Shown: positions 5,790-24,922 of the stretch, piece after piece
Layout of the letters: every line of letters begins with the position of its first letter
Position numbering within the stretch: position 1 is the stretch's first letter
Origin: a virus
Length of the DNA stretch: 25,578 nucleotides
IMG/VR virus record: IMGVR_UViG_3300031877_000324
Location: 1-25,578 of that record
Strand: one strand, 5' to 3'
Notes under the pieces: model-generated
The model's database searches: none
What the model saw: only the letters and a program-made list of their open reading frames with translations
What the model was told of the DNA's origin: nothing
Translations under genes and position numbers: made by a program

Positions 5790-6545
5790 TCACGCATGGA
5801 CGCCTGTTAGCTTCCTCAAGGCTGAACTTTGGACGAGAACTGGCTGAAGCCACTGGCGAATCAGGAATGCGGTGTAGCCCATCGGCTCGTTGCGGTATCT
5901 CGCAGCTTCAGTGGGTCCTTCTCCAAGGATTATGGCCGGAGCAGCCAGAGACCCAACGATTGCCACCGTGCTAGTCAACGTGGTATCGCTGATACCTGTT
6001 ACACCTGGCAACCCGGGGATTGTGAAGGTCTTTCCGGATGGCAACTGGACGCCGTAAAGTCCTCTTACTCTGGAGTTGCTGAAGAAGTCCATCCAGACAA
6101 GTGGATCTGCGGCTATGAAGTCAACGGGGAAACCGTTGCCCTCGATTGCGTCCATGACGCCTCCAATGTCATCGAAGGGATTGACGTCGCCGCCCCAGTC
6201 GCTGCCTGCCACGGCGGTTGCTCCCTCGGCTACGGTCTTGATCTGTGAGTTCTCCATCCTTGCAAGTTCTTTCGCAGCGTCGGCAATGTTGACGTTGAGG
6301 ATGTCGTGGGCTGCCTTCTTCACAGCCTCGTCGCTTATGACTACGTGGACTACGTTCTTCCAGAGGTCGAAGTTGGTCCTCGAGTAGGCCTCTGCGCTGA
6401 TCGTAGCCTCAACCAAGGGTGGAACTTTCTCGACGCCTGTCAGCTTCGTTGCCACATCAACACTGGCGACTAGGTTTGGCATGGCGACTACGCGGCAGAT
6501 GTTCCTCAAAACGTATTGGGGTGTCGCGTCCCGGTCGACAGCCAC
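5790..6545 (-). CDS. Major capsid protein, HK97 fold (main part), 251 aa
   Basis: It lies between the cement protein and head-tail adaptors. The sequence has the layout of an HK97-type capsid protein: an N-terminal arm, an E-loop-like part (EKVPPLVEATISAEAYSR near 39-56), then the spine-helix region KNVVHVVISDEAVKKAAHDI (63-82) and NIADAAKELARMENSQ, followed by P- and A-domain sequence (WGGDVNPFDDIGGVMDAIEG) and a C-terminal IRQWLQPVLV. At 251 aa it is short for the family. The only plausible start is GTG 6545, with no Shine-Dalgarno site, and it lies in the closing stem of a three-way-junction element. The frame is open for ten codons further upstream, to a stop within that element. The protein may therefore begin in the 52-codon ORF upstream. 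Confidence 0.85.
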   Translation of the reverse strand: MAVDRDATPQYVLRNICRVVAMPNLVASVDVATKLTGVEKVPPLVEATISAEAYSRTNFDLWKNVVHVVISDEAVKKAAHDILNVNIADAAKELARMENSQIKTVAEGATAVAGSDWGGDVNPFDDIGGVMDAIEGNGFPVDFIAADPLVWMDFFSNSRVRGLYGVQLPSGKTFTIPGLPGVTGISDTTLTSTVAIVGSLAAPAIILGEGPTEAARYRNEPMGYTAFLIRQWLQPVLVQSSALRKLTGVHA

Positions 6546-6607
6546 GGACTTTGACCCGGTGATCAGTCGGGTCGTTTAACCAGTCCTAACAAGACTGGGT
6601 CCGTGGC
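6541..6607 (-). ncRNA. 67-base three-way-junction RNA element at the capsid start
   Basis: The sequence folds into a perfect 9-bp closing stem (6541-6549 with 6599-6607, GCCACGGAC/GTCCGTGGC) and two 6-bp hairpins: 6553-6558 with 6568-6573 (GACCCG/CGGGTC) and 6580-6585 with 6593-6598 (CCAGTC/GACTGG). The linkers on the minus-strand RNA are 0 nt, UUAAAC and AAA. One more A-U pair can extend the closing stem. It begins directly after the TAA of the 52-codon ORF, and its 3' strand holds the capsid GTG. The pairing is seen directly. Its function (start sequestration, intron or bypass element) is unknown. It lacks the hammerhead CUGANGA core. Confidence 0.7.
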
Positions 6608-6766
6608 TTATCTCGCAAGCCCCAAAACCTCGTCGAGAATCACCTTGGCCTCAATCGCCGAGATGTCTTCTTGCGTGATCAGCTGAGCCTCATAGTGGCC
6701 CAGGCTTGAGAGCCTGTAGAATTTATCGCTTCGTGGGTCTCTCCAAACACCATAAAATTCTTGCAT
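6608..6766 (-). CDS. 52-aa protein, possible N-terminal part of the capsid protein
   Basis: The ORF starts at ATG 6766 with a good AAGGTGAT 5 bases upstream. It encodes MQEFYGVWRDPRSDKFYRLS, then a helix-rich segment ending IEAKVILDEVLGLAR. Its TAA abuts the three-way-junction element. It could be a small independent virion protein. Three points suggest instead that it is the N-arm of the capsid protein: the downstream capsid ORF is short and lacks a Shine-Dalgarno site; the ending ILDEVLGLAR would run naturally into the capsid's VAVDRDATPQYVL; and no separate gene is usual at this place. The two frames differ, so joining needs removal or skipping of a length equal to 2 modulo 3. Confidence 0.75.
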   Translation of the reverse strand: MQEFYGVWRDPRSDKFYRLSSLGHYEAQLITQEDISAIEAKVILDEVLGLAR

Positions 6767-11455: not shown

Positions 11456-11837
11456 CCTTCAGCAAGGTCCCCGCCTTGTTGATGAGATCACCGAGCAAGC
11501 GATAGGCCCGAATTTTTAGGATCGGTTTGTCTGTGGTATTTATGATCGTTTGGACTACCTGAATCGCATTTTGCAGTCGGCTGTACAAGTCTTCGCGCTC
11601 CAGGCTCACATCGAGAGTGAATCTTAGCGAAAATGATTTCTCTATCGAAAGGCGGTTCATTTTAGGCTCCTTCCCAAACTTTTTCTCAAGTTTTCTGTTT
11701 TGAAAGGCTTCCCAAATCGCTTTTTGTTTCTCCTCCCTCTCCGCTATCTGGGAAAATGCTCGCCAAATTGCCTTTTGAACCAAGTCTCCTTTTTTGACTT
11801 GTAGCTTCATCAATTCGAGGATGCGGCTCTCAGACAT
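11391..11837 (-). CDS. Probable terminase small subunit, 148 aa
   Basis: The gene directly precedes and overlaps the large terminase, the usual place of the DNA-recognising small subunit. The product is highly helical and charged, with an N-terminal helical region (ESRILELMKLQVKKGDLVQK), a middle part (SLRFTLDVSLEREDLYSRLQ) and a C-terminal coiled coil (VEIEDLEREIEALKKAEAKA) suited to oligomerisation. I see no clear helix-turn-helix, so the call rests mainly on order. GGTGA lies 6 bases before the ATG. The start overlaps the end of the transglutaminase-like gene by 8 bases. Confidence 0.6.
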   Translation of the reverse strand: MSESRILELMKLQVKKGDLVQKAIWRAFSQIAEREEKQKAIWEAFQNRKLEKKFGKEPKMNRLSIEKSFSLRFTLDVSLEREDLYSRLQNAIQVVQTIINTTDKPILKIRAYRLLGDLINKAGTLLKDVEIEDLEREIEALKKAEAKA

Positions 11838-12471
11838 AGCGTTTCACCAAGTCAGCATATTTTTTGAGTTTTTCTTCGTCCTCTTCAAAAGATTCTTCAT
11901 TGTAAATCGCGAAGGGGTCATAGGTTACATCCAGCTTGCCACCATAGGCTTCTTCGACAGGTATGAAAGGCGGGGCATCGGGGTGCACCGTTGTCTCTAG
12001 TAGGTAACGGTTCTTTGTGAGTTCAATTTCTGTCCAAGCGTGAAAGCCTAAGAGGTTTTTGGTTTTTGTGTCGAGAACTGCGCCGAGGCGGGTCCAAGCC
12101 TTTATGCCTTTGATTCTCAGAAGCGTGGTGCATAAATTTGCGGTGCATGCACAGAAGCCAGTTTTTGCCGTCCAAGTCTGATTGGGTAGACGCCAACTGT
12201 ATTGTAGGCCAAAAACATAGTGGAACAGAAAGAAGAAGAATTTTGGAAAAAGGTAAATCTTATGAGCGGTAGAGGGCTGGCCAAGTAAGTCGAGTGGGTA
12301 TGTTATTTCGCGGCATATAACATTGAAAATGGCTTTAGCGGTCTCCTCGTCATTTCGTCCGCCGATCGAGTCGGCTAGGTCCTGCATTTGCAGATTATTG
12401 ACCTGAATGAACTCGCAGATGTGATAGTATTCGCCGAAAGTTGTGTAAGGTACAAAACTATCCAAACTCAT
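11830..12471 (-). CDS. Transglutaminase-fold cysteine protease, 213 aa
   Basis: A transglutaminase-like domain is clear. A Cys in TGFCACTANLCTTLLRIKG (Cys107 from this start), a His in GFHAWTEI (His144) and an acid in LLETTVHP (Glu159, where Asp is usual) form the expected order of catalytic residues. Upstream is a hydrophobic, Phe-rich stretch (LFPKFFFFLFHYVFG near 74-88). ATG 12471 is preferred: GGTG lies 9 bases upstream, whereas the longer frame would start at a TTG inside the preceding gene. It lies next to a holin-like gene and upstream of the terminase genes. The related fold in the pseudomurein endopeptidases of methanogen viruses makes a lytic role possible, but a head-maturation or host-directed protease is equally open. 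The acidic C-terminus (NEESFEEDEEKLKK) is of unknown role. Confidence 0.7.
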   Translation of the reverse strand: MSLDSFVPYTTFGEYYHICEFIQVNNLQMQDLADSIGGRNDEETAKAIFNVICREITYPLDLLGQPSTAHKIYLFPKFFFFLFHYVFGLQYSWRLPNQTWTAKTGFCACTANLCTTLLRIKGIKAWTRLGAVLDTKTKNLLGFHAWTEIELTKNRYLLETTVHPDAPPFIPVEEAYGGKLDVTYDPFAIYNEESFEEDEEKLKKYADLVKRYV

Positions 12472-12505
12472 CTGACTGCACCGACCAACAAGTAGGTCAT
12501 TGATT

Positions 12506-12673
12506 CTATTTTTTGCCGAACCAGAAGCCCACGGCAACGCCTGCCAATTCGATCAAGATGTCTGCCTGTGAGTTATGTGTTAAAACCGCCGCGATCGCGC
12601 CGACCGATAAGACAATCGCCAAGATGCCTCGCCAGTCGGCTTCCGAAAGTAACTCTCTTACTTCCTTGAACAT
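12506..12673 (-). CDS. Two-helix membrane protein, holin-like, 55 aa
   Basis: The start is fixed by GGAGG 6 bases before ATG 12673; the longer frame upstream lacks a ribosome site. The product has a short charged N-terminus (MFKEVRELLSEADWR), one membrane helix (GILAIVLSVGAIAAVLTH), a short polar turn and a second hydrophobic stretch (ILIELAGVAVGFWFGKK) ending in two Lys. This two-helix form is that of small class II or III holins and other viral membrane proteins. It is followed 34 bases later by the transglutaminase-like gene, so a paired lysis function can be proposed. No sequence motif proves it. Confidence 0.68.
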   Translation of the reverse strand: MFKEVRELLSEADWRGILAIVLSVGAIAAVLTHNSQADILIELAGVAVGFWFGKK

Positions 12674-13311: not shown

Positions 13312-14067
13312 CTAATGTAGAGAGAAAATGAAAATAAGATTGAAAAACATATGTCCAAGAATCGAGTATATTATTTTTTGGGTATCGTAAAACCGACTCG
13401 AGATACCGATTAGTATTACGAAATAAGACAAGAACACAAAGGTGAGAACTACATAGAATGGACTTTGAATAAACCTGAATAAGAGAGAAAGAGGTTCCAC
13501 AGTTTCTGGGGCAAAAAAAATTCTGGAGACATGGTTAAGAGTTTGCAAAACTGAACACCCAAATAGACCTATATGTCCACCGTATTTTTTCTCCAGCTCT
13601 ATTTGAAAGAAATATTTATAGAACAATTCTTCTGTGATTGGAGCCACTAAAAGTAATAGAAACAGATTTATAATGTTTTGGAACGAAAAGCTCGTGATTC
13701 TAAATCCAATTGTTTCACTATGGACATACGAAGACAAAATAAGAAATGCAAAAGGGATAACAAAGCATAAGGATGATTCTAATATCTCAGATAACTCAAG
13801 CGGGTATGAGTATATATATTCCAAAGAAATCTTTTTCCTTGCAACAATGAAGGGGACAAGAAGCAAGATATGAAAGAATAAAGACGATACAATAAAGTAG
13901 TTTGGATCTGGTTTAAGATAGTCCAAAGTAATAGAATAGAACAACAAACACATCACCCAATAAACAATCATCCTAGTAAATGTTCGGCTACGAATAATGA
14001 AATAAGTAATTCCAAAAAGAAACATCACTAGACCTGTAATAAGATAAAACATTCCAATAAGAGTCAT
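13312..14067 (-). CDS. CPBP/Abi-family intramembrane metalloprotease, 251 aa
   Basis: This integral membrane protein has about seven or eight hydrophobic segments. The catalytic motifs of the CPBP (CAAX-processing, bacteriocin-processing, Abi) family are visible: APITEELFYKYFF with Glu146-Glu147 and Lys151 in place of the usual Arg, LQTLNHV with His179, and GHMFFN with His239 and Asn243 (HxxxN). The membrane topology around them fits a buried zinc site. The gene starts with a TAATG overlap on the upstream two-helix gene, making a three-gene operon of membrane proteins. Base composition is much more AT-rich than the structural genes, which suggests separate acquisition. The substrate is unknown. 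Roles in host exclusion, immunity or envelope change are all possible. Confidence 0.82.
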   Translation of the reverse strand: MTLIGMFYLITGLVMFLFGITYFIIRSRTFTRMIVYWVMCLLFYSITLDYLKPDPNYFIVSSLFFHILLLVPFIVARKKISLEYIYSYPLELSEILESSLCFVIPFAFLILSSYVHSETIGFRITSFSFQNIINLFLLLLVAPITEELFYKYFFQIELEKKYGGHIGLFGCSVLQTLNHVSRIFFAPETVEPLSLLFRFIQSPFYVVLTFVFLSYFVILIGISSRFYDTQKIIYSILGHMFFNLIFIFSLH

Positions 14068-15589: not shown

Positions 15590-16477
15590 TCAGCCACCGT
15601 CAAGCGTTTGGTTCTTTGGCAACGGGTAGTTTGCGATGATCAGATTCGTGAACTTTGTCCTCCTCTCTCCATGACTCTTGTAGCTCGCGGCCTTCGTCAT
15701 TCGTGCTTCAGTGATGCTGAATTTTGCATAGGCTTCGCGAACCCAGGGATCGTCGTTATAAGTCAGTAGCCATTTTCCCTTGGGTTTTCCCAGAGTCTCC
15801 CGCAAGTCCGTGTGATCTTTAGGCGAGAATTTTCGCTCGTAGTACTGAAGTCCATAGTATGGAGGATCGAGGTAGAAGAAGGTTTCAGGCGTATCCCAAT
15901 TCTTTATGCATCTACGAAAGTCGAGGCATTCAATGTAGCAGTTTTTGAGGCGTTCTGAGATCTGCTCGGTGTCATCCAGTGCGGACCATAGAGTGTGTGG
16001 TGCAGGCTTGCCTGGCTGCCGTTTGTAGCGTATTGACGCGCCGTATGATCCGGAGAAGCTGCAGCGCAGAATATAGTAGAAGCGCACAGCCCTCTCCACA
16101 TGATCCTCCGGCATCGGCTCATCGAGCCATTTTTTGTAGAGTCCTCGGCTGTAAAAGACCCACTTGAACCGCTTTATGAAATCTCTCTGGTTGTCCCGGA
16201 CCACTGAGAAGAGGTTGACGAGGTCGCCGTTCAGATCATTATACACTTCTACCGAGCTTGGAGGCTTATTGAGGAGTAGGTTTGCTGCGCCGCCGAATAC
16301 CTCCACAAATATGCGGTGTGGTGGAATCAATGGAACCAAAGTTTTTAGGAGGCGAAATTTGCCGCCAATGTATGGAAAGAAGCATACCTTCCTGCGTCCA
16401 GGCCTTTTCGCCAGCGCCTTTCTGAGTTGCTCTTCGAGGCCACCAAAAAATTTAAAATCTAATGAAGTCTTATCCAT
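15590..16477 (-). CDS. Dam-like N6-adenine DNA methyltransferase (D12 class), 295 aa
   Basis: This enzyme should transfer a methyl group from S-adenosylmethionine to adenine N6 in a short DNA site. The class-alpha order is plain: PYIGGKFRLL (35-44), motif I FVEVFGGAANLL (58-69), YNDLNGD (79-85), then the target-recognition part (about 100-195) and motif IV DPPYYG (204-209). A Phe/Ser-Gly-rich CSFSGSYGASIRYKR block at 139-153 is typical of Dam/DpnIIA-like enzymes. GGAGG lies 10 bases before ATG 16477. No matching restriction gene is adjacent, so it is probably an orphan that protects viral DNA or marks it. The target sequence cannot be read from this. Confidence 0.9.
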   Translation of the reverse strand: MDKTSLDFKFFGGLEEQLRKALAKRPGRRKVCFFPYIGGKFRLLKTLVPLIPPHRIFVEVFGGAANLLLNKPPSSVEVYNDLNGDLVNLFSVVRDNQRDFIKRFKWVFYSRGLYKKWLDEPMPEDHVERAVRFYYILRCSFSGSYGASIRYKRQPGKPAPHTLWSALDDTEQISERLKNCYIECLDFRRCIKNWDTPETFFYLDPPYYGLQYYERKFSPKDHTDLRETLGKPKGKWLLTYNDDPWVREAYAKFSITEARMTKAASYKSHGERRTKFTNLIIANYPLPKNQTLDGG

Positions 16478-16563
16478 TTTGGGGTTTCCTCCGCGACCCG
16501 TGCCCCGCGATCCAGGTCAAGGCGTGCGCGGCGAACGGGGGAAGCCTCTAAGTCATTCCTCAT
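16459..16563 (-). CDS. Possible leader peptide ahead of the methyltransferase, 34 aa
   Basis: A frame from ATG 16563 to 16459 encodes MRNDLEASPVRRARLDLDRG and ends EETPKWIRLH, with the stop inside the methyltransferase start. ATG 16563 follows the TATA-predicted start site by about 15 bases with no Shine-Dalgarno site. It is rich in Arg codons and could couple or attenuate the downstream gene, but it may be chance. Confidence 0.25.
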   Translation of the reverse strand: MRNDLEASPVRRARLDLDRGARVAEETPKWIRLH

Positions 16564-16630
16564 TTTCGCACTCTTTGAGGAGGAATAGTGGAGGAACTTC
16601 CCTATAAATCTTTCCCCAAATAGTGCGAAA
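16564..16630. promoter_or_regulatory. Inverted-repeat operator in a divergent promoter region
   Basis: TTTCGCACT (16564-16572) and AGTGCGAAA (16622-16630) form a perfect 9-bp inverted repeat 49 bases apart. A minus-strand TATA (TTTATA, 16603-16608) serves the methyltransferase side. A plus-strand TTTTTTAAG (16637-16645) just outside the right arm serves the RHH gene, whose start is 38 bases beyond the TATA centre. The right arm overlaps the BRE region of the RHH promoter and the left arm lies just past the minus transcription start, the expected places for repression of both sides by a dimeric regulator. Confidence 0.55.
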
Positions 16631-16678
16631 GAAAGCTTTTTTAAGCACAAAAAACACATAAGACAGCTAGTGGAACCC

Positions 16679-16837
16679 ATGAAGAAAACATGTATAAGGG
16701 TAGACCTAACGGGCGATCTGGAAAAGAACTTCCTCTACGTCAAGAAGACGCGAGGCATAAAGAACAGCTCCGAAATGATCAGGCTGCTAATCGCCGAGGA
16801 GTATAGAAGACTATCCGGCGCTCCACCCTTCAGATAG
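16679..16837 (+). CDS. Ribbon-helix-helix transcription regulator, 52 aa
   Basis: This short protein has a classical RHH layout: a beta strand (CIRVDLTG, residues 5-12), helix A (DLEKNFLYVKKTRG) and helix B beginning NSSEMIRLLIAEEYRRL, where NSS is the helix-capping motif. Two chains pair to insert the ribbon into the major groove. It is the only plus-strand gene within the minus-strand region and is divergent from the adenine methyltransferase, with an inverted repeat over the shared promoters. This suggests autoregulation and control of the leftward early unit. The start is ATG 16679 with a weak GTGG 7 bases upstream. The length is normal for viral RHH regulators such as those of rudiviruses. 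Confidence 0.82.
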   Translation: MKKTCIRVDLTGDLEKNFLYVKKTRGIKNSSEMIRLLIAEEYRRLSGAPPFR

Positions 16838-16850
16838 CAATACCTATGAG

Positions 16851-17042
16851 TTATTTTCCCAGTCTCAACCGTTCCCTGAAGTCAACGGCTATGCCCTCGT
16901 TCATATCTTCCACGGCCCTATCTGCCTCTTCCAAGACGCGATCGACAGTCCCGGGCTGGCTCTTCAGCCTCTTGATCAAGGATCGGACCCATACAAGCGC
17001 CTCCAAGGCGCCCTTACAGTAGTCGTTCAAAGCAGACCCCAA
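16851..17042 (-). CDS. Small helical protein, probably leaderless, 63 aa
   Basis: A TTG at 17042 lies 24 bases from the centre of a TTAAATA box, so transcription would begin at the start codon and the message be leaderless. The product is helical: SALNDYCKGALEALVWVRSL, then a linker (KSQPGTVDR) and a second helix (VLEEADRAVEDMNEGI) with the end AVDFRERLRLGK. Helical hairpins of this kind occur in archaeal viruses and mobile elements with no known function. It converges with the RHH gene 14 bases away. The rare start codon is the main uncertainty; a TTG five codons later could also serve. Confidence 0.65.
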   Translation of the reverse strand: MGSALNDYCKGALEALVWVRSLIKRLKSQPGTVDRVLEEADRAVEDMNEGIAVDFRERLRLGK

Positions 17043-17062
17043 AAATTAGAGAATTGGTCAGG

Positions 17063-17069
17063 TATTTAA
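17063..17069 (-). promoter_or_regulatory. TATA box for the 63-aa helical protein
   Basis: Minus-strand GTTAAATACC contains TTAAATA, 24 bases from TTG 17042. The spacing fits leaderless transcription. Confidence 0.55.
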
Positions 17070-17077
17070 CGATCCGA

Positions 17078-17210
17078 GGTATATAAGGGGGAGGGGGCTT
17101 CTGTCAAATCGATCGATCGCAATGAGTTGGGACTTCTTTCTCTCTAATTGGCCCTACTGTTTAGTGACTTGGGAAGGCCTACAAACTGGCCTAAGTGTAA
17201 GGATATAAGA
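17078..17210 (+). promoter_or_regulatory. Two TATA-like boxes before the nuclease gene
   Basis: AGGTATATAAGG (17077-17088) and GGATATAAG (17202-17210) match archaeal TATA boxes on the plus strand. The second would start transcription near 17232, 13 bases before ATG 17245. The first would give a leader of about 135 bases. Both lie in the divergent gap between the 63-aa gene and the nuclease. I see no ORF in this gap. Confidence 0.45.
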
Positions 17211-17244
17211 GAAATACCCGATTAATTGCTTTTGGGGGGCGTAT

Positions 17245-18063
17245 ATGTATAGAAAGGAAGTAGGTTCTCCCCTGAATTTTAGAGGGCTGATTTACAGTCC
17301 AATAAATGAACAAGGAGTTGTTTATCTCTTCAGTCTAATTGCAAAAGACTTGAATATTAGGGTTGAAAGTATTCAGCAAGGCTATCCAGACTGTACAGCA
17401 ATTCGATATATCGGTGGTGGAAAATGGGAAAGAGTAAACATCGAGTTTGAATACAAAAGCAGTCAATTTGATCACGATCCTTCTAAATGCGACATTGTTG
17501 TCTGTTGGGAGGACGACCTATCAGAAGATAAAAGAGAGAGATTGAAAGGTTTAGAAATTATCGAATTGAAATCGACTATTAATACCCCAGAAGTACCAGA
17601 CGAAAAATTGACGGAGCCTGAAGAAGCCAAGGGGCGTAAAACTGAATATGATTTAGGATACCATTTCGAGAGGAGTTCCGCGACTGGTAGAGTACAAGAG
17701 CTCTATAGAGAATTAGACAAAGGGATTAGGGACATACATGGATCGGTCTGGGTTAAATACGCAAAAACAAGCATCACCTATTATTCTCCAGAAAAGGTTT
17801 TTGTATTCGTTGGTCTTCGAAAAAGCACCATAAGCTTGACTATCTACACAGATCAAAACAAACTAAAGGACGTTAAAAATATCAAAGACCACGAAAATTG
17901 GGGAAGAATAATCATTGAAAGTAAGAACAAGTTGCCAGTCGCTATTGAAGCCATTAAAAAATCTTACGAATTGATATCTGAAGCGATAAGAAATAATAGA
18001 AACACTGGATGGTATGCTCTAACTCCAAAAGACAAAGGCTTGACCTCTACCGAGTGGAGGTAA
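17245..18063 (+). CDS. PD-(D/E)xK nuclease with DUF5655-like C-terminal domain, 272 aa
   Basis: The N-terminal domain (about 12-95) looks like a restriction-like nuclease: a helix after INEQGVVYLFSLIAKDL, then YPDCTAIR (Asp49), then VNIEFEYKSSQF (Glu69-x-Lys71) and CDIVVCWEDD. These supply the expected D...ExK order. The C-terminal part (about 150-262) has the DUF5655 look: VQELYRELDKGIRDIHG, VWVKYAKTSITYYS, LRKSTISLTIYTDQNKLKD and a last helix VAIEAIKKSYELISEA. Start ATG 17245 is preceded by a GGGGGG run. It stands at the edge of the viral region and may be a defence or anti-competitor enzyme. Domain calls are by eye and the activity is inferred. Confidence 0.75.
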   Translation: MYRKEVGSPLNFRGLIYSPINEQGVVYLFSLIAKDLNIRVESIQQGYPDCTAIRYIGGGKWERVNIEFEYKSSQFDHDPSKCDIVVCWEDDLSEDKRERLKGLEIIELKSTINTPEVPDEKLTEPEEAKGRKTEYDLGYHFERSSATGRVQELYRELDKGIRDIHGSVWVKYAKTSITYYSPEKVFVFVGLRKSTISLTIYTDQNKLKDVKNIKDHENWGRIIIESKNKLPVAIEAIKKSYELISEAIRNNRNTGWYALTPKDKGLTSTEWR

Positions 18064-18154
18064 GCGCGAGAAAGAACTGACTAAATTATATTCTAAAGCT
18101 ATAGAAAATCTCCTGATAGTTCGAACGGACATCAAGTCAAAATGCGGGGGCAAT

Positions 18155-18340
18155 ATGTCATTTCGACTTTGGAATAGTATGGGTGAACAAGTAGCTCAGA
18201 CTGTTCTTAGGCTTGGCGGTAGCGTAATAACGGTGAAGGAGAAGGTATCTACACCCGACACCCGAGTCATTCAGAGACTTTCCAGAGAAATTGCCAGACC
18301 CCGCTGCAAGTCGATGATAATAGTTCCCACACAAGACTGA
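18155..18340 (+). CDS. Small unknown protein, 61 aa
   Basis: ATG 18155 has GGGGG 5 bases upstream. The product starts MSFRLWNSMGEQVAQTVLRL, then GGSVITVKEKVSTPDTRV and a basic end (RLSREIARPRCKSMIIVPTQ). The same frame stays open upstream to about 18044, overlapping the nuclease stop, and that part also reads like protein (KREKELTKLYSKAIENLLIV, positions about 18062-18121). The gene may thus be longer with a non-standard start, or be the remnant of a larger one. It is followed by a T-rich terminator. I do not recognise a family. Confidence 0.45.
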   Translation: MSFRLWNSMGEQVAQTVLRLGGSVITVKEKVSTPDTRVIQRLSREIARPRCKSMIIVPTQD

Positions 18341-18353
18341 TATCCCCGTAAAT

Positions 18354-18367
18354 CCCCTCTTTTTTCT
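18354..18367 (+). terminator. T-rich terminator after the plus-strand unit
   Basis: CCCCTCTTTTTTCT lies 14 bases after the stop of the 61-aa gene. Archaeal terminators are commonly plain T-runs without a hairpin; this one ends the 17245-18340 unit. Confidence 0.5.
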
Positions 18368-18487
18368 AGTCTTAATATGGGTTTCCATCTTTTCTGACAA
18401 TTTTGGAACAGAATTGAAAGCTTAGAAGTGTGGAGTGGAATTTACGCATGAATTCACTAGTAAAAATACGTCACATATATGCTTGGC

Positions 18488-18514
18488 GAGAGTTGGAATC
18501 TCTCCGGGCTACCA
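18488..18514 (+). other. tRNA 3'-end-like sequence, possible attachment site
   Basis: GAGAG-TTGGAAT-CTCTC resembles a T-arm (5-bp stem, 7-base loop; the loop has G where TTC is usual). It is followed by CGGGCT-A-CCA, like an acceptor end with discriminator and encoded CCA but one base short. No anticodon or D-arm lies upstream, so this is not a working tRNA gene. Integrated archaeal viruses leave such 3' tRNA pieces at one end. It lies between the viral plus-strand unit and the restriction-type genes. Confidence 0.35.
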
Positions 18515-18528
18515 CCGCTTAGCGCACG

Positions 18529-20283
18529 CTATCTCCATCTATTCGCACAAAAATCCATGATTTGATTCGTCCTTATGTCGATGTCATTTTTTGTGAAATT
18601 CCGGTTATTAAGGCGGTGACCTAACTGTTTTGTTGTTGGCACACTTGATTGCTGGTATTCGGTGGCCTTTCTTTCTGGTGGAATTAAACCCATTCTTCCT
18701 AACTTCTTGTTTATTCTTCCTTCGAGTAAACATAAGTTGCCAAGCCTATGAACATTGGTATAGTAATCAAAGTTATCCTTAAAGCCGTACGCTTGGACAT
18801 TCAAGGTCGTGTGAAGTTCGGGTTGAAATATATGTTCTTTCTGCAAAATTTTGAAGAGCCCATAATTACGTTCATTGAAAGTGGGGTTTTGACTCTTTTC
18901 GTATTCCCATAATATATAGTCCGTGGCTTCATTGCCATACATGTATCCATTAAGATAACGCCGAAACTCGGTATCTGGCATGAATGTGTTAGTAAAATCC
19001 TTAATATTGTCATGGATTTGCGCAAGATCTGGATTGATCTTTATCTGTGATATGGCATTGTTATACAAACCAGCTCTGGGATCTGTGCCTCTCACTTTAT
19101 AGACCCTTAAATCGAGACTCTCGATGGCATCGAGCATCGGTTTATTAAGCAAGCCCTCTGCTTCTAAGGATATAATTAGGGGATAGACCCTCGTGTTCAA
19201 TCCAAGAAAACCAAATAACTTTCTGAACTGCGTCTCTGTTCCGACTTTATCGGTTATCGTTTTGAAAGCTAGTACAAATTTATTGAAATTCTCTAAGAAC
19301 TCTTGAGCAAAATCACTTAATCGTTGGGTGTTGGTTTTGAGGTGTTCGCATGCTCTTTTCAAAAATTCCTCAAAAACATTCCCTGCTGTTACGTCATAGT
19401 TGTAGGCTGTTGGTGGAGAGTATTCTTTTATTGTGTAGTAGGCAAAGTAATGATAGAAGAATCTTAGAAGTTCGTCCTCGGAAAAACCTTCGCTTCTTAT
19501 ATAATTTATGTGATTTCTTTCGCCAGACTCCTTAATAAAGTCGTAGTTTGCAAAGATGTTTCCAAAAATCGTATTTATTGTATCATCCAAACTATCGTTT
19601 AGGTAACGCGAGGAGTAGAACATTAGAAAGCTCTTTGTTTTGTCAAGCAACGTAAGGGGCTTTCCTCTATCGTTAAGCGTTTCAAATGCTTTTACTGCGA
19701 GTGACTTGTCTTGAACAACAAACTCTAAGGAAAACGTAACGTTTTGGAGATGTTTTGATAAATCATCAAAACGTCCGAAGTCCTCAATTTGATTCTTGAA
19801 AAACTCGAAAGCATTTTTCAATAGCCTATTAGTTTTTATCCTCGGTTGTGGATCTTTCCCATCAACAAGGTCTTTCAAGAATTGGTCGTTAAGGCCACCC
19901 AAAATTACTCTATAGATGTCCCCACACTTGATGAAATTCTTTCGGATTGCTGGCTTTCCCATTTCAGAAAGTGCAAGCAAGAATAAGTATATTGTAGCTA
20001 TTCTCTGCTGTCCATCAACTACATCATATACCTTGAAAGTAGTGTCTTCTTCACTGCAATCCAAAGCTTCTCTCGTCTCCATCAGCGTGATAGGCCCCCA
20101 ATAATGTTCTCTGCCCATCAGTAAACTCTCCTTCAGGTCATCCCAGAACTCTTTGATCTCTTTGAGGTTTTTTTCTCCCCAAGCGTAGTTCCTTTGATAT
20201 TTCGGCACTCGAAATACCTTTCCCGCAAACAACCGATATACATTATGGGCTTGAGCGTATGCTCTTATGGCTGGAGGCAACAT
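18529..20283 (-). CDS. DUF262-DUF1524 protein (GmrSD-type modification-dependent nuclease), 584 aa
   Basis: The N-terminal DUF262 (ParB-like NTPase) motifs are clear: VPKYQRNYAW (27-36), HYWGPI (60-65) and VVDGQQRIAT (88-97), then FETLNDRGKPLTLLD (200-214). The C-terminal DUF1524 domain has the HNH-like set EHIFQ (483-487), VHRLGNLCLLEGRIN (511-525) and the closing RTNQIMDFCANRW. GmrSD enzymes use nucleotides and cut modified phage DNA; SspE in phosphorothioate defence has the same domains. The size and completeness fit an active single-chain enzyme. It starts at ATG 20283 with GTGAGA upstream. A minor 26-codon ORF and a TATA-like AATTAAAT lie in the gap before it. The cognate modification is unknown. 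Confidence 0.9.
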   Translation of the reverse strand: MLPPAIRAYAQAHNVYRLFAGKVFRVPKYQRNYAWGEKNLKEIKEFWDDLKESLLMGREHYWGPITLMETREALDCSEEDTTFKVYDVVDGQQRIATIYLFLLALSEMGKPAIRKNFIKCGDIYRVILGGLNDQFLKDLVDGKDPQPRIKTNRLLKNAFEFFKNQIEDFGRFDDLSKHLQNVTFSLEFVVQDKSLAVKAFETLNDRGKPLTLLDKTKSFLMFYSSRYLNDSLDDTINTIFGNIFANYDFIKESGERNHINYIRSEGFSEDELLRFFYHYFAYYTIKEYSPPTAYNYDVTAGNVFEEFLKRACEHLKTNTQRLSDFAQEFLENFNKFVLAFKTITDKVGTETQFRKLFGFLGLNTRVYPLIISLEAEGLLNKPMLDAIESLDLRVYKVRGTDPRAGLYNNAISQIKINPDLAQIHDNIKDFTNTFMPDTEFRRYLNGYMYGNEATDYILWEYEKSQNPTFNERNYGLFKILQKEHIFQPELHTTLNVQAYGFKDNFDYYTNVHRLGNLCLLEGRINKKLGRMGLIPPERKATEYQQSSVPTTKQLGHRLNNRNFTKNDIDIRTNQIMDFCANRWR

Positions 20284-20434
20284 ACTATCTCACTTTAATG
20301 TCATCCAACAACGGACACTAAGCGCAATCGTTTTGATCTTGGCATTTAATTTTCTAAAAAATCTTTTCATCAATTAAATCATCGTATTCCTTTACCTTAA
20401 GCCAAAAGCGAAAATAGAGGTTGATCTTTTTGGA

Positions 20435-21355
20435 TCACAATCCCTCAAAGGTTTCTTCTTGAAACTGTTCTCTCAATTTATCCAAAATATCACTATTGAT
20501 GCCCTTCATTTTTGCTGCCAATAGATATCGAACAAGATGAAAATATTGATTAGAATGGAAGACAGATGGATGGGGGCCCTCTATTTGCATAGTCTTCTTG
20601 AATTCTTTCAAAACACTTGGATCTACAATATTGCGTCCAACCATGTCTGACAAGATTCTGCACGCGTCTGGAATTGTCAAGTGTAGGCGTTCAGGGTCCG
20701 GGGCATCATTCTTAACATCACTAGGATCTAATTTTTTCAAATCTTCTACTCTCTTCAATCCATTCAAGTGCTTATGGTAAAATTCAATTTCATGCGCACG
20801 ATAAGTAAACCATCTTTTTCCTCTTTCTGTAAGACTGCCCGGAGGGAGGTATACTCCCTCCTTTATTACCCGTTCTTTTGAAACCCAGCCACAAATAAAC
20901 AAATTCCAATTTCTCTGTTTGGGTGTACCTGGAAGTTTTCCGTCACCCGTTGTTTGCAGATGGGCCATTAGGTAAATGTCTGTCTTCAAAGAGTCATCAA
21001 AAACTTGACGGGCAAAAAGATTATGCTTGGCATCACGCGGAGGACCTGTAATTCCCTCATACTTTTCTTTAAATGGAAATTCTCCTCCTCTACATTTTAC
21101 ATCGACTTTAACGCCGCTGGGTAAAATAAAGTCGTATCCTAGGTCTACTCTGGAAGGGATTGGTTTTGGGAAACCTAACTTGCGGGCCACTACTATTTGG
21201 GCCAACATACCATAACTTTGCTGTCTGATGCTCCCTGCTTGTGGTCCCGTCGCAGGACTTTTTTTGACAATATCTGCGGCTTTTTTCCTAAGCTTATAAC
21301 CTTCTTGGCCTCCTAGTGGCTCAACTATTGGAGTTGGGTGAACATAAGTGTACAT
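20435..21355 (-). CDS. PD-(D/E)xK nuclease, possible restriction endonuclease, 306 aa
   Basis: Residues about 40-180 have the restriction-like fold: a helix (QQSYGMLAQIVVARKLGF), then GYDFILPSGVKVDVKCRGG with Asp75, Asp85 and Lys87 (D...DxK), then DIYLMAHLQ and WNLFICGWVSKERVIKEGV, the usual strand and 'yxfxG' region of such enzymes. The usual first-helix Glu is not evident. The C-terminal half is charged and helical (VEDLKKLDPSDVKNDAP, ILSDMVGRNIVDPSVLKEF). A TATA (TTTAAATG) 28 bases before ATG 21355 implies a leaderless message. It lies beside an RHH regulator and a large DNA methyltransferase and may be the cutting partner; this pairing is inferred. Confidence 0.65.
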   Translation of the reverse strand: MYTYVHPTPIVEPLGGQEGYKLRKKAADIVKKSPATGPQAGSIRQQSYGMLAQIVVARKLGFPKPIPSRVDLGYDFILPSGVKVDVKCRGGEFPFKEKYEGITGPPRDAKHNLFARQVFDDSLKTDIYLMAHLQTTGDGKLPGTPKQRNWNLFICGWVSKERVIKEGVYLPPGSLTERGKRWFTYRAHEIEFYHKHLNGLKRVEDLKKLDPSDVKNDAPDPERLHLTIPDACRILSDMVGRNIVDPSVLKEFKKTMQIEGPHPSVFHSNQYFHLVRYLLAAKMKGINSDILDKLREQFQEETFEGL

Positions 21356-21378
21356 AATTTTAGATTAACCTAAGAAGC

Positions 21379-21386
21379 CATTTAAA
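21379..21386 (-). promoter_or_regulatory. TATA box for the 306-aa nuclease gene
   Basis: Minus-strand GGGTTTAAATGG contains TTTAAATG centred 28 bases from ATG 21355, compatible with a leaderless or nearly leaderless transcript. Confidence 0.6.
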
Positions 21387-21489
21387 CCCTCGTTTTCATG
21401 TTCGCACGTGAGGCCATTAGTATTTTTGAATAGTCAATCTTAGACAAAATCACGTGGTCAACATTAGATTTACCGCCTTATCTTAAGGT

Positions 21490-21642
21490 TCACCTCTTGA
21501 CCCTGCGCTTCATGTATTCTCTTATTGCGTTCTCCAATTCATGACTAAGTTTTCGTGCAGAACCTGTTTTATCTATTACAAATTTTGTCCATTCCTTCCA
21601 CAACTCGTTATCTATAGTGATTGAGGTTTTTCTTTTTGACAA
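21490..21642 (-). CDS. Ribbon-helix-helix regulator, 50 aa
   Basis: A small ORF from TTG 21642, with GTGAT 8 bases upstream. The product has a beta strand KTSITIDNELWKEW, a first helix (NELWKEWTKFVIDKTGS) and a second helix (ARKLSHELENAIREYMKRR), the form of CopG/Arc-type RHH proteins with a basic tail. The strand residues (TSIT) would contact DNA. It diverges from the large methyltransferase gene, and tandem and inverted repeats lie over the shared promoters. This is the arrangement of controller proteins in restriction-modification systems, though those are usually helix-turn-helix. The non-ATG start is the main doubt. Confidence 0.7.
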   Translation of the reverse strand: MSKRKTSITIDNELWKEWTKFVIDKTGSARKLSHELENAIREYMKRRVKR

Positions 21643-21675
21643 CTCGATTTCATCACTATTTTTTGAGGGTTAAAA

Positions 21676-21754
21676 CTTTAAATGTTTTGCGGTATTGCAG
21701 CATAGCGGTAAGATTTAAATACGTTATAAAGTATAACAGTATAACGGTATTAAT
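21676..21754. promoter_or_regulatory. Divergent promoters with operator-like repeats
   Basis: The plus-strand TTTAAATA (21714-21721) is a perfect TATA for the methyltransferase, with the start expected near 21743. CTTTAAAT (21676-21683) is the minus TATA for the RHH gene. GTTATA-AAG-TATAAC (21723-21737) is a perfect inverted repeat, and GTATAACA, GTATAACG, GTATTAAT follow as 8-base tandem units (21731-21754) over the start site. GCGGTA occurs at 21689 and 21705. The repeats are well placed for RHH binding. Confidence 0.6.
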
Positions 21755-21826
21755 GCGGGAAAATAGAAATAGATGAAAGAGAAATCCTTAATTAGAAAAT
21801 GGCCATTTATCAGAAGATGAGAAAGA

Positions 21827-23815
21827 ATGCAAGCCGATTGGGATAAAGAAGCATTTTTAGGTTCATGTCTGCATTCTACAATACAGGAACTAGAATCATG
21901 GCCAGAATCAAAAAAGAAACATGCGATCAGGTACATTAACCGGGTTATCGAAAACGATCCCATGCTTAAAAAAATTAGTTTAAAAAAATATTCCAATACA
22001 CTTAAGGAAAAATTCAGAAGTGGATTAAGTCCGATTAGCCAGTTCGATGCTTACTGGCGATTACAACCACCTGTTGCTCGGACGCAATTGGGGCAGTTTT
22101 ATACTCCTGAATTATTGGTTGATCACATTATTTCAACTTGCAATGTGGGTTTTGATTCCCTGCTTCCGAGTCCTTACGTTGCTGACATCGCATGTGGATC
22201 GGGTGTTTTCTTACGAAAAACAATAATTGCGAAGGTAAAAAATGGTAATGGCCCACTTGAAGCCAGAGTAATAAATGCAGTCCGGCATACCATTGGTTTG
22301 GATAAAGAACCTATTGCATGCAGTTTATCAAAATTGTCAATCGCCCTAGTGGCTCTAAATCTGTCTCGTGACACCAGTGATTTGTTATTTCATAGAATTG
22401 TTGATAGTTTGCCCTTACCCCGAGTTTATACGACTGATAGTTTGGAAAAAGAGGAAGAATTGCGCACATACGAAAAACAAGCCAATGATGAACGCACGAT
22501 CTTGGAAATAAAAGGTCGAAGTGGTGAATTTCATTCGGGTTTAGGCGCCATTGTTAGCAATTTCCCATTCTTAGAAGCAAAACGGATGAATAAAATAGAT
22601 CCAAACTTGAAGAGTTGGTTAAAGAAAAGATATCCTCAATTATTTGCCGCCTTCGATTTGTACATCGCCTTTATCTACAGGTCTTTAGAGCTTCTAGCAA
22701 CAAATGGCGTTCTTGGAGTAGTATTACCCAATAAGTTTCTAATAGGCAAGTATGGTTCACATGTCAGAAAATTCTTATTAGAAAACCACAAGATTCTTCA
22801 GATAAGTGACTGTTCTCGAGTAGAAAATTCCTTTAGAAATACGGGAGTCTACCCAATCGCTTTTTTCGTGAGAAAAGGAAAGTCAAAAGATGAAGAAAAG
22901 AACGAGATATTCGGTCTATCTGTAAAAAGTTTGAGTGAATTGAGTACTGCTACCAAAACAGCTATTGATGCAAATCTCTTCCGTCTGACCGGTAAAAATC
23001 ACACCTATTTCGTGCCACCCTCTCACAGAATAGAATTGATAAGAGATTTCTTAACTGACCGCAATTTTCCCAGATTAGGTGAGCTAGTTGATCTTCGCAC
23101 GACAGTATCCTTCCATAAAAAAGGCACTCGTGAACAATTTGTCAAAATTAGGGATCTAGAAAAGATCAAATCAAACAACTTCATTTTCAAATATATAGGC
23201 GGCAAAAGTTATTCCCGAAAAAATGAAGTAGACATGTTTACACTAAACTGGGATGGATATTCAATTGATTATAACCCATCGCATCTCAAAGAACTTGACC
23301 ATACTCTTCCGCCCCTAAAAAACTTTTTACAGCCTAAAGTTATTTTTTGCCAGCATTCTCAACGACTTAGAGCATATTTAGATGTAAACGGTGAATACGT
23401 AACAAAAGATGTTTTTCCAATAGCGTTTCCGAGAAAAGATCCAAAGAAATCGTTAGATGTCACCACTATTTGCGCCTACTTTAATAGCAGTTTATTTACA
23501 ATCTTATACAATTCGATACATCACGGGATAACGATAAGCAGGGGCTTTTATCATTACCTTCCAGCCTTTTTGGAGATTTTGCCAACTGTTAAACCAGATA
23601 GTGACGCTCAAAAGATGTTAGCTGAAAAAGTTCATAGGCTTCAATCCTTATGTTCTCAAGAAAATAATCGAGACAAAAACAGAGAAGTAATCAAAACATA
23701 TGACTCTTTGGATAAGAAGGTTAGTCAAATACACGGCTTAAATGAAAATATTCATGGGGAGCTTCAAAGAGAGATTATTCAAGCAAAAATACCATTTCCG
23801 TGGAAAATAAGCTAG
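21827..23815 (+). CDS. N6-adenine DNA methyltransferase, Eco57I/TaqI-like, 662 aa
   Basis: After a helical N-terminal part (1-75), LGQFYTPELLVDHI (88-101) and motif I VADIACGSGVFL (118-129) bind S-adenosylmethionine. GLDKEPIA (157-164) follows. Motif IV is SNFPF (244-248), where NPPF or NPPY is usual. ATNGVLGVVLPNKFL (291-305) is motif VIII-like. From about 350 the C-terminal half resembles a TaqI-like target-recognition domain (RLGELVDLRTTVSF, a type I/IIG-like segment). There is no nuclease domain, so it is a modification enzyme alone. ATG 21827 has only a weak ribosome site. A 15-codon ORF (MKEKSLIRKWPFIRR) precedes it in the leader. Its low GC differs from the virion genes. Confidence 0.85.
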   Translation: MQADWDKEAFLGSCLHSTIQELESWPESKKKHAIRYINRVIENDPMLKKISLKKYSNTLKEKFRSGLSPISQFDAYWRLQPPVARTQLGQFYTPELLVDHIISTCNVGFDSLLPSPYVADIACGSGVFLRKTIIAKVKNGNGPLEARVINAVRHTIGLDKEPIACSLSKLSIALVALNLSRDTSDLLFHRIVDSLPLPRVYTTDSLEKEEELRTYEKQANDERTILEIKGRSGEFHSGLGAIVSNFPFLEAKRMNKIDPNLKSWLKKRYPQLFAAFDLYIAFIYRSLELLATNGVLGVVLPNKFLIGKYGSHVRKFLLENHKILQISDCSRVENSFRNTGVYPIAFFVRKGKSKDEEKNEIFGLSVKSLSELSTATKTAIDANLFRLTGKNHTYFVPPSHRIELIRDFLTDRNFPRLGELVDLRTTVSFHKKGTREQFVKIRDLEKIKSNNFIFKYIGGKSYSRKNEVDMFTLNWDGYSIDYNPSHLKELDHTLPPLKNFLQPKVIFCQHSQRLRAYLDVNGEYVTKDVFPIAFPRKDPKKSLDVTTICAYFNSSLFTILYNSIHHGITISRGFYHYLPAFLEILPTVKPDSDAQKMLAEKVHRLQSLCSQENNRDKNREVIKTYDSLDKKVSQIHGLNENIHGELQREIIQAKIPFPWKIS

Positions 23816-23878
23816 TCTAGCGCTGCCCATGAATTGCAAATGTTTTGACTAGAATTACGCCCGCGCTTTGAACTAAGG

Positions 23879-23908
23879 TTTATATACATTGACAATTCTG
23901 ACAATTCC
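23879..23908 (+). promoter_or_regulatory. TATA box and tandem repeat before the PUA-nuclease gene
   Basis: TTTATATA (23879-23886) is followed by GACAATTCT and GACAATTCC (23891-23899 and 23900-23908), a 9-base tandem repeat differing at the last base. The repeat ends at the expected transcription start, an operator-like place, and the TTG at 23909 would be leaderless. Confidence 0.55.
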
Positions 23909-24922
23909 TTGTGGTTTCTGAAAATGCTCTTCGGACTTGACCCCATTAAGAATGAAATCAAAATTGTCAGTAGAGTTCGCCTCAAAGACTTTGGTTGGGA
24001 CGAAAGGAAGTTTCAAAGTCTTTTGTTCCAGAATTTAGACAGGGTAATCCAAGAAGAAGAATTAATGCTGATATCACAATCTCGCAGATGGCAAGAAGAA
24101 CCTGACCTGATGGCAATCGACGAAAAGGGTGACCTCTGGATTTTTGAGCTGAAGGCATGGGAGTCTCAAGAATCAAACATTCTTCAAGCATTGAGATACG
24201 GACAAAAATATGGTCAATATGATTATGATGATCTCAACGAGCTCTTCTCTAAGTTTGCTAAGAAACAAATGATAGATGCTTACAAAGATAGATTTCCGGA
24301 TCAGAACATCACAAAAGAACAGTTTAACAAAAACCAACATTTCATAATAGTGACAAATGGGTTAGACATCCGAACGCGAGAAGCAATCATCTATTGGCGA
24401 GAAAGAAAACTCGATGTGAAACCCTGGATATATCGCATTTACAAGACAAAGAACAAAGAACTATTTCTTGAGTTTAACACTTTCAGAATGAAAGATGACC
24501 CCTTTGAAGATATTGAAGAGGGTTACTTTATCGTTAATACAAATATTAGTCACGGCAAAGAAGATGACGAGGATATGCTAAAAGGAAAAAAAGCAGCGGC
24601 CTTTTTTGATCCATGGAAAAAGTCAATAAGAAGGATAAACCCAGGAGATAAGGTGTTCCTATATCGGTCAGGGGAAGGGATCGTCGCAAGAGGTATAGCA
24701 AAAGACAGATACAAGAAGAAGGCATATCATGACGACCCAGATTACGCCGATGAAGAGTATTACGTTGAATTGAAGGATTTCTCGCTCTGTTCACCTCCTT
24801 TGACCCCTTCAGAAATCAATGAGAAAACAGGGATTGACTATAGATTTATGAAGACCTGTTTTGCAATCGATAAAGAATCTGGAGAGAAAATCTGGAGAGA
24901 AATCTCACGAAGAATTGCGTGA
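23909..24922 (+). CDS. NucS-like PD-(D/E)xK nuclease with PUA/EVE-like domain, 337 aa
   Basis: The N-terminal domain (about 20-200) is restriction-like: EEPDLMAIDEKGDLWIFELKAW (63-84) with Asp66, Glu80 and Lys82, then a Tyr-Gly helix (ALRYGQKYGQYDYDD) and HFIIVTNGLD. This resembles DUF91/NucS-like or other self-standing nucleases that use the DxxxxxGxxxxxExK pattern. The C-terminal domain (about 205-337) resembles a PUA/EVE fold: YFIVNTNISHGKEDDEDMLK, INPGDKVFLYRSGEGIVARG, and YVELKDFSL. EVE domains read modified bases, so this may be a modification-dependent nuclease. The TTG start fits a leaderless message; an ATG five codons later is the alternative, without a ribosome site. Confidence 0.75.
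   Translation: MWFLKMLFGLDPIKNEIKIVSRVRLKDFGWDERKFQSLLFQNLDRVIQEEELMLISQSRRWQEEPDLMAIDEKGDLWIFELKAWESQESNILQALRYGQKYGQYDYDDLNELFSKFAKKQMIDAYKDRFPDQNITKEQFNKNQHFIIVTNGLDIRTREAIIYWRERKLDVKPWIYRIYKTKNKELFLEFNTFRMKDDPFEDIEEGYFIVNTNISHGKEDDEDMLKGKKAAAFFDPWKKSIRRINPGDKVFLYRSGEGIVARGIAKDRYKKKAYHDDPDYADEEYYVELKDFSLCSPPLTPSEINEKTGIDYRFMKTCFAIDKESGEKIWREISRRIA

Follow-up and report, generated by a model that had tools for sequence, protein, structure and literature searches.

A putative small archaeal-type intron containing an RNA three-way junction in the major capsid gene of a tailed virus

Comparison of related genes strongly supports the view that the major capsid gene of a tailed virus is split by an intervening sequence of 86–91 nt, and that a structured RNA element lies inside this insert. 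The stretch of DNA analysed in full (the window, 25,578 nt) is a virus record, IMGVR_UViG_3300031877_000324; judging from its relatives, the host of the virus probably belongs to the Bathyarchaeia. The insert breaks the reading frame and contains stop codons; it therefore has to be removed or skipped, and we consider it very likely that a single capsid protein is made in this way. The reading we favor, with a probability of roughly 0.7, is that the insert is a small structured archaeal pre-mRNA intron spliced by the host tRNA-splicing machinery, where we infer both the splicing at the RNA level and the identity of the enzyme. At the sequence level, the comparison shows that one ancestral ORF is broken at a fixed codon, that the frame is restored at the same point in five genes and that the three-way junction covaries.

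Organization of the interrupted capsid gene

The virion operon of the window runs on the minus strand and comprises, in order, the genes for the terminase (11455–10064), the portal (9912–8713), a scaffold/protease-like protein (8713–7190) and a decoration-like protein (7188–6778), followed by a small ORF, the RNA element and the capsid ORF. Genes for a transglutaminase-core protein (11830–12537) and a CAAX-protease-like membrane protein (13312–14067) are found on the same strand as the operon, and the virion genes are adjoined by a cluster of the restriction-modification type (15590–24922), whose members include a D12 adenine methyltransferase (15590–16477, minus strand), a GmrSD-like endonuclease (18529–20283, minus strand) and an Eco57I-type methylase (21827–23815, plus strand). 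The features of the capsid gene, including those of the predicted splice junction, are the following.

6612–6766, minus strand: major capsid exon 1, starting with ATG at 6766 (MQEFYG...EVLGLA plus the AG of a split Arg codon); the 52-codon ORF of the earlier note
6523–6611, minus strand: 89-nt intervening sequence; preferred placement GCG AG^A ... AC^A CCC
5790–6522, minus strand: major capsid exon 2, the A of the Arg codon followed by PQYVLRNICRVV... to the stop
6541–6607, minus strand: three-way junction (P1, P2, P3) within the intervening sequence, with joining strand J2/3 UUAAAC
6620–6625, minus strand: outer helix, 5' strand UUGGGG, in exon 1; pairs with 6521–6516
6614–6617, minus strand: central 4-bp helix, 5' strand UGCG, in exon 1; pairs with 6528–6525
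6613–6611, minus strand: 5' bulge AG^A, 3 nt, directly after UGCG
6529, minus strand: A6529–U6610 pair on the inner side of the 5' bulge, covarying (U-A or C-G in relatives)
6525–6528, minus strand: central helix, 3' strand CGCG, in the intervening sequence
6524–6522, minus strand: 3' bulge AC^A, 3 nt, directly after CGCG
6516–6521, minus strand: outer helix, 3' strand CCCCAA, in exon 2
6543–6545, minus strand: GTG formerly proposed as the capsid start, in P1; not conserved and probably no start codon

Exon 2 matches the major head protein family phrog_1650 (E 1.8e-11). An intronless relative was modelled with AlphaFold at low confidence (pLDDT 54); the PDB structures most similar to this model, HK97-type capsids and encapsulins, support the identity of the gene as a capsid gene, not the structural details of the model.

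Three relatives retrieved by protein search (L002, L003 and L004) are 82–83% identical to the window capsid, the similarity beginning only at the residue before P-Q-Y; all three retain the three-way junction and the small ORF and lack the GTG. A fifth interrupted gene, L019, encodes a protein about 50% identical to that of the window (49%). In every other relative checked, the capsid gene is one continuous ORF reading ...EEVLGLA-R-PQY...; these genes number about two dozen and come from viral contigs as well as from genomes of Bathyarchaeia. More specifically, a single ORF of the EVLGLARPQY type spans the junction in three contigs of Bathyarchaeota MAGs (L008–L010; ...IEAQVVLEEVLGLA-R-PQYNLRRACRV...) and in the viral contigs L011–L018, and continuous genes are likewise present in additional viral contigs and in other genomes of Bathyarchaeia. 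At the junction, G-L-A-R-P is the sequence of most continuous genes, the Arg being kept in most. Because the continuous ORF of the relatives runs through both positions, the 52-codon ORF corresponds to their capsid N-terminus (exon 1 is homologous to the N-terminus of the continuous ORFs L008–L018 and L031–L041) and the three-way junction lies inside an interruption of the gene. A search of viral contigs with the DNA pattern EVLGLA-AGAYAR returned only the known interrupted genes and three hits whose translations did not look capsid-like, and no relative was found among GenBank phages. Note that another contig (IMGVR_UViG_3300010319_000008, positions 2–307) carries at its end a stretch with 98% identity to the C-terminus of the window capsid; it comes from a very close relative, the contig ending before the intron position.

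The insert occupies the same codon in the five genes and measures 89 nt in the window, 89 nt in L002, 86 nt in L003, 86 nt in L004 and 91 nt in L019; in the window, both the exon-1 frame and the exon-2 frame run into a stop within it. Exon 1 ends with GCG AGA in all five genes, and exon 2 starts with CCC, the preceding nucleotides being variable (AAA, ACA or CAA). Joining at AG/A CCC gives ARPQY, ARPLY or ARPRY, so that A-R-P is restored in five genes out of five; joining one base later (AGA/CCC) gives an identical product, and the placement of the cut is hence ambiguous by one base. In the window, excision restores LGLARPQY as found in intronless relatives. Divided by three, the length of the insert leaves a remainder of 2 in four genes and of 1 in L019, whose exons still join correctly; because of this difference, the relation between the exon frames is not fixed, as expected for excision and not for frameshifting. 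Programmed −1/+1 frameshifting was rejected since the relative exon frames differ between genes; moreover, a stop in the exon-2 frame precludes any overlap of the frames in the window, L002, L003 and L019. Finally, L002 and L003 differ at codon positions 1/2/3 by 5/1/17 in exon 1, the corresponding figures for exon 2 being 11/8/77; both exons thus evolve as coding sequence under selection at the protein level, which argues against a dead gene.

Fold and covariation of the three-way junction

The three-way fold of positions 6607–6541, described in the earlier note as free of mismatches in its paired parts, was confirmed. On the minus strand, P1 (9 bp) pairs 6607–6599 with 6549–6541, P2 (CCAGTC/GACTGG) pairs 6598–6593 with 6585–6580 and P3 (GACCCG/CGGGTC) pairs 6573–6568 with 6558–6553, the minimum free energy (MFE) being −35.8 kcal/mol compared to −18.7 ± 3.4 in dinucleotide shuffles (z −5.05; none of 200 as good). 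The plus strand of the same segment folds about equally well because the helices are inverted repeats. The conserved unit exceeds these 67 nt: P1 is one pair longer, with A6608–U6540 covarying (A-U or G-C in relatives), and the 89-nt intervening sequence (approximately 6611–6523) has an extra 3' tail, the ends of the unit being set by the capsid gene.

The search for compensatory changes called for at the outset was carried out on a structural alignment of five genes (the window and four relatives; 99.2% of cells paired). Changes on both sides affect 12 of the 26 modelled pairs, compared to 4.9 ± 1.5 in shuffles, and none of 500 shuffles matches this value, although the alignment was made to fit the structure, which biases the counts in favor of the latter. 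Sliding the structures by 1–3 columns removed nearly all of the signal, and an independent hand alignment gave the same picture of covariation. These observations support the conclusion that the three-way junction is a structured RNA element under selection. Together with the junction itself, the joining strand J2/3 between P2 and P3, where UYAAA is conserved, is the best conserved part of the intervening sequence. The 3' tail (window 6540–6523) is alike in the window and L019 (ACCGGGACG) and differs in L002–L004, which carry palindromes (CGCACATGTGCG or CGCACGCGTGCG); it could form a hairpin competing with the central helix.

A covariance model built from the window, L003 and L004 recovers L002 at 7e-19 and L019 at 2e-11. 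It detected no further copy of the element in the virus contigs searched, and none was found in 257 Bathyarchaeia genomes, the latter search, run without a positive control, being weak evidence. As anticipated, the element fits no named RNA family: no Rfam entry, including group I and group II introns, matched at the gathering threshold, the best weak match having an E-value of 1.9.

A BHB-like motif and possible routes to a single capsid chain

Archaeal BHB introns have a 4-bp helix with a 3-nt bulge on either side, each bulge being cut behind its second nucleotide (PMC2738675), and some splicing endonucleases also act on relaxed forms (PMC2738675; PMC12397907); cbf5 pre-mRNA introns, for which relaxed BHBs are used, are likewise cut between bulge nucleotides 2 and 3 (PMC2738675). 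We scanned the five genes for BHB-like motifs with cut sites restricted by frame only. Each gene has several chance solutions, and only one is common to all five, namely that at the junction inferred from the protein comparison. In this shared solution, the central helix is formed by (U/C)GCG from the end of exon 1 and CG(C/U)G from the end of the intron, leaving bulges AG^A and NN^A, an outer helix of 3–10 bp forms between the exons, and covariation (U-A or C-G) is seen in a further pair that lies directly under the 5' bulge. The cuts predicted between bulge nucleotides 2 and 3 coincide with the protein-inferred junction in five genes out of five, within the one ambiguous base. The central helix with the adjacent covarying pair arises in 0.5–1.5% of shuffled introns for each gene, chances that are not to be multiplied as the genes are related. 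The pairing probability in the window is 0.99–1.0 for the outer helix (with 30-nt flanks) and 0.44–0.94 for the central helix, and both helices are present in the MFE folds of the window, L003 and L004, whereas free folding does not favor the central helix in L002 (probability ≤0.25) and L019 (about 0.01). The central helix displays one-sided changes only, CU faces the 3' bulge and the inner helix beside the 5' bulge is only 1–2 bp long: the motif is BHB-like, non-canonical, and its support comes from five genes in two capsid lineages. All six Bathyarchaeia genomes carrying this capsid family contain splicing endonuclease genes, and five of them contain RtcB. Three of the six (G217, G240 and G034) have two endonuclease genes and the other three have one; two genes per genome would be the expectation for a heteromeric enzyme in these three.

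In the splicing pathway that we propose, the exon ends would pair in the pre-mRNA (UUGGGG with CCCCAA), as would the end of exon 1 (UGCG) with the end of the intron (CGCG), placing both splice sites in 3-nt bulges (AG^A and AC^A) that flank the 4-bp helix, with the three-way junction compacting the intron between the two bulges. The host tRNA-splicing endonuclease would then cut each strand after the second bulge nucleotide, and the RtcB ligase would join the exons as GCG-AG/A-CCC, the predicted joint in the window being TTGGGGCTTGCGAG followed by ACCCCAATACG. The product would be one capsid protein with the ancestral ...EVLGLARPQY....

The earlier note had placed the capsid start at a GTG held in the stem and released by ribosomes stopping upstream. 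The element does follow directly on the TAA (6610–6608, minus strand) of the small ORF, and the 3' strand of its closing stem does contain the GTG (6545–6543). A separate small N-terminal peptide and an internally started capsid, whether through such a coupling switch or as a split capsid, might also be reconciled with the own start of exon 1 and with the single ATG or GTG that the window, L003, L004 and L019 each have in the exon-2 frame before PQY. However, when the region from the last in-frame stop to exon 2 is compared, these starts differ in place (an ATG elsewhere in L003 and L004, a GTG elsewhere in L019), and L002 has no ATG, GTG or TTG there. Protein conservation starts at the residue before P-Q-Y and not at the GTG, the AVDRD that follows the GTG in the window being unconserved. 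Furthermore, the two dozen or so relatives lacking the element have a conserved capsid start elsewhere, in one uninterrupted gene encoding one chain, in which the junction falls within a predicted helix (residues 40–54, low-confidence model). As no sequestered start of the downstream gene is conserved, the coupling switch was rejected, and the production of two proteins in any form appears quite improbable. Translational bypassing, which we deem unlikely, would keep a single chain: ribosomes would take off at the GCG (Ala) codon before the stop, slide over the structured gap and land on the GCG preceding CCC CAA TAC, giving LA-T-PQY in the window (tryptic peptide VILDEVLGLATPQYVLR) or LA-K-PQY. 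The in-frame GCG at both ends in the window and L002–L004, the stop close after GCG in the window and L019 (GCG AGA TAA) and a structured gap as in T4 gene 60 (PMC8211752) are in line with this scenario. However, L019 has GTG CAA before CCC and thus no matched landing codon at the junction, its only nearby in-frame GCG lying further upstream, where landing would add HRDVQ; bypassing would also cost the conserved Arg, putting Thr, Lys or extra residues in its place, yet AGA is kept in the five genes. No archaeal case of programmed bypassing was found in the literature searched.

Another question is whether excision would proceed through the BHB-like motif. The three-way junction and UYAAA are the best conserved parts of the insert, whereas a BHB intron needs no such core, and the BHB is imperfect and, in L002 and L019, of low thermodynamic stability; the junction might hence be the core of a different excision system, e.g. 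a new small self-splicing RNA or a substrate of another endonuclease. On the other hand, the cut positions agree with the BHB rule and Rfam gave no intron match; to our knowledge, no self-splicing intron is as small as this insert. We regard such a mechanism as highly improbable. The broader idea of a new short structured element with a three-way-junction core, removed from or skipped in the viral mRNA by a non-BHB route and having entered the same capsid codon in two virus lineages, is doubtful but deserves some weight. Splicing by the host tRNA-splicing machinery thus remains the reading we favor.

Distribution of the putative intron and comparison with known systems

On the capsid tree, interrupted genes occur in two places, the window grouping with L002–L004 (100/100) and L019 lying beside the intronless L014, so that at least two changes are needed. 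The intronless L032 and L033 are nearer to the window (65% identity) than is L019 (49%). This distribution would be explained if the intron either moved between viruses or was lost several times, a pattern that recombination within the capsid gene could mimic. As for the sister branches L019 (intron-bearing, 6139–6242) and L014 (intronless, 6001–6144), their placement suggests intron loss or horizontal gain.

If the proposed splicing is real, it would represent a very rare instance of mRNA splicing in archaea and their viruses, a 2009 paper having listed cbf5 as the only confirmed case of archaeal pre-mRNA splicing; no description of introns in Bathyarchaeia viruses was found in the literature searched. 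Virion production would then depend on archaeal mRNA splicing, which could be studied as a control point of infection, and the intron would be maintained or spread among tailed archaeal viruses related to Bathyarchaeia proviruses. The prediction of the splice is precise to within one ambiguous base. Annotation pipelines call for caution as well: the capsid gene is broken up into a small ORF that escapes notice and a shortened capsid whose start is wrong, and other genes of this kind may be suffering the same misreading.

The closest parallel is provided by the cbf5 introns of Crenarchaeota (PMC2738675). Like them, the capsid intron would be short and non-coding and would interrupt a protein gene where the codon context is conserved, with a predicted BHB-like motif, cuts after bulge nucleotide 2 and a patchy presence among relatives; relaxed BHBs are common on the cbf5 side (PMC2738675). 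Unlike them, it lies in a gene for a major capsid protein, in viruses that have relatives among Bathyarchaeia proviruses, is 86–91 nt long versus 33–39 bp in the cbf5 examples quoted (PMC2738675), and has a covarying three-way junction and CU facing the 3' bulge, its splicing being predicted. Intron-like insertions have also been proposed in protein genes of another archaeal virus, the rudivirus SIRV1, in the form of putative 12-bp introns (Peng et al. 2004, as cited in PMC2738675); according to that citation, these leave the frame open and their splicing was never shown, whereas the 86–91-nt capsid insert is frame-breaking and stop-containing. Finally, the capsid insert resembles the bypassing elements of T4 gene 60 and of Magnusiomyces mitochondria by its structured non-coding gap, the stop near the take-off site and, in four genes out of five, matched codons. 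It differs from them in that L019 has no matched landing codon beside the junction, in that the conserved Arg would be lost and in that the ends of the capsid exons can pair together, as in an intron.
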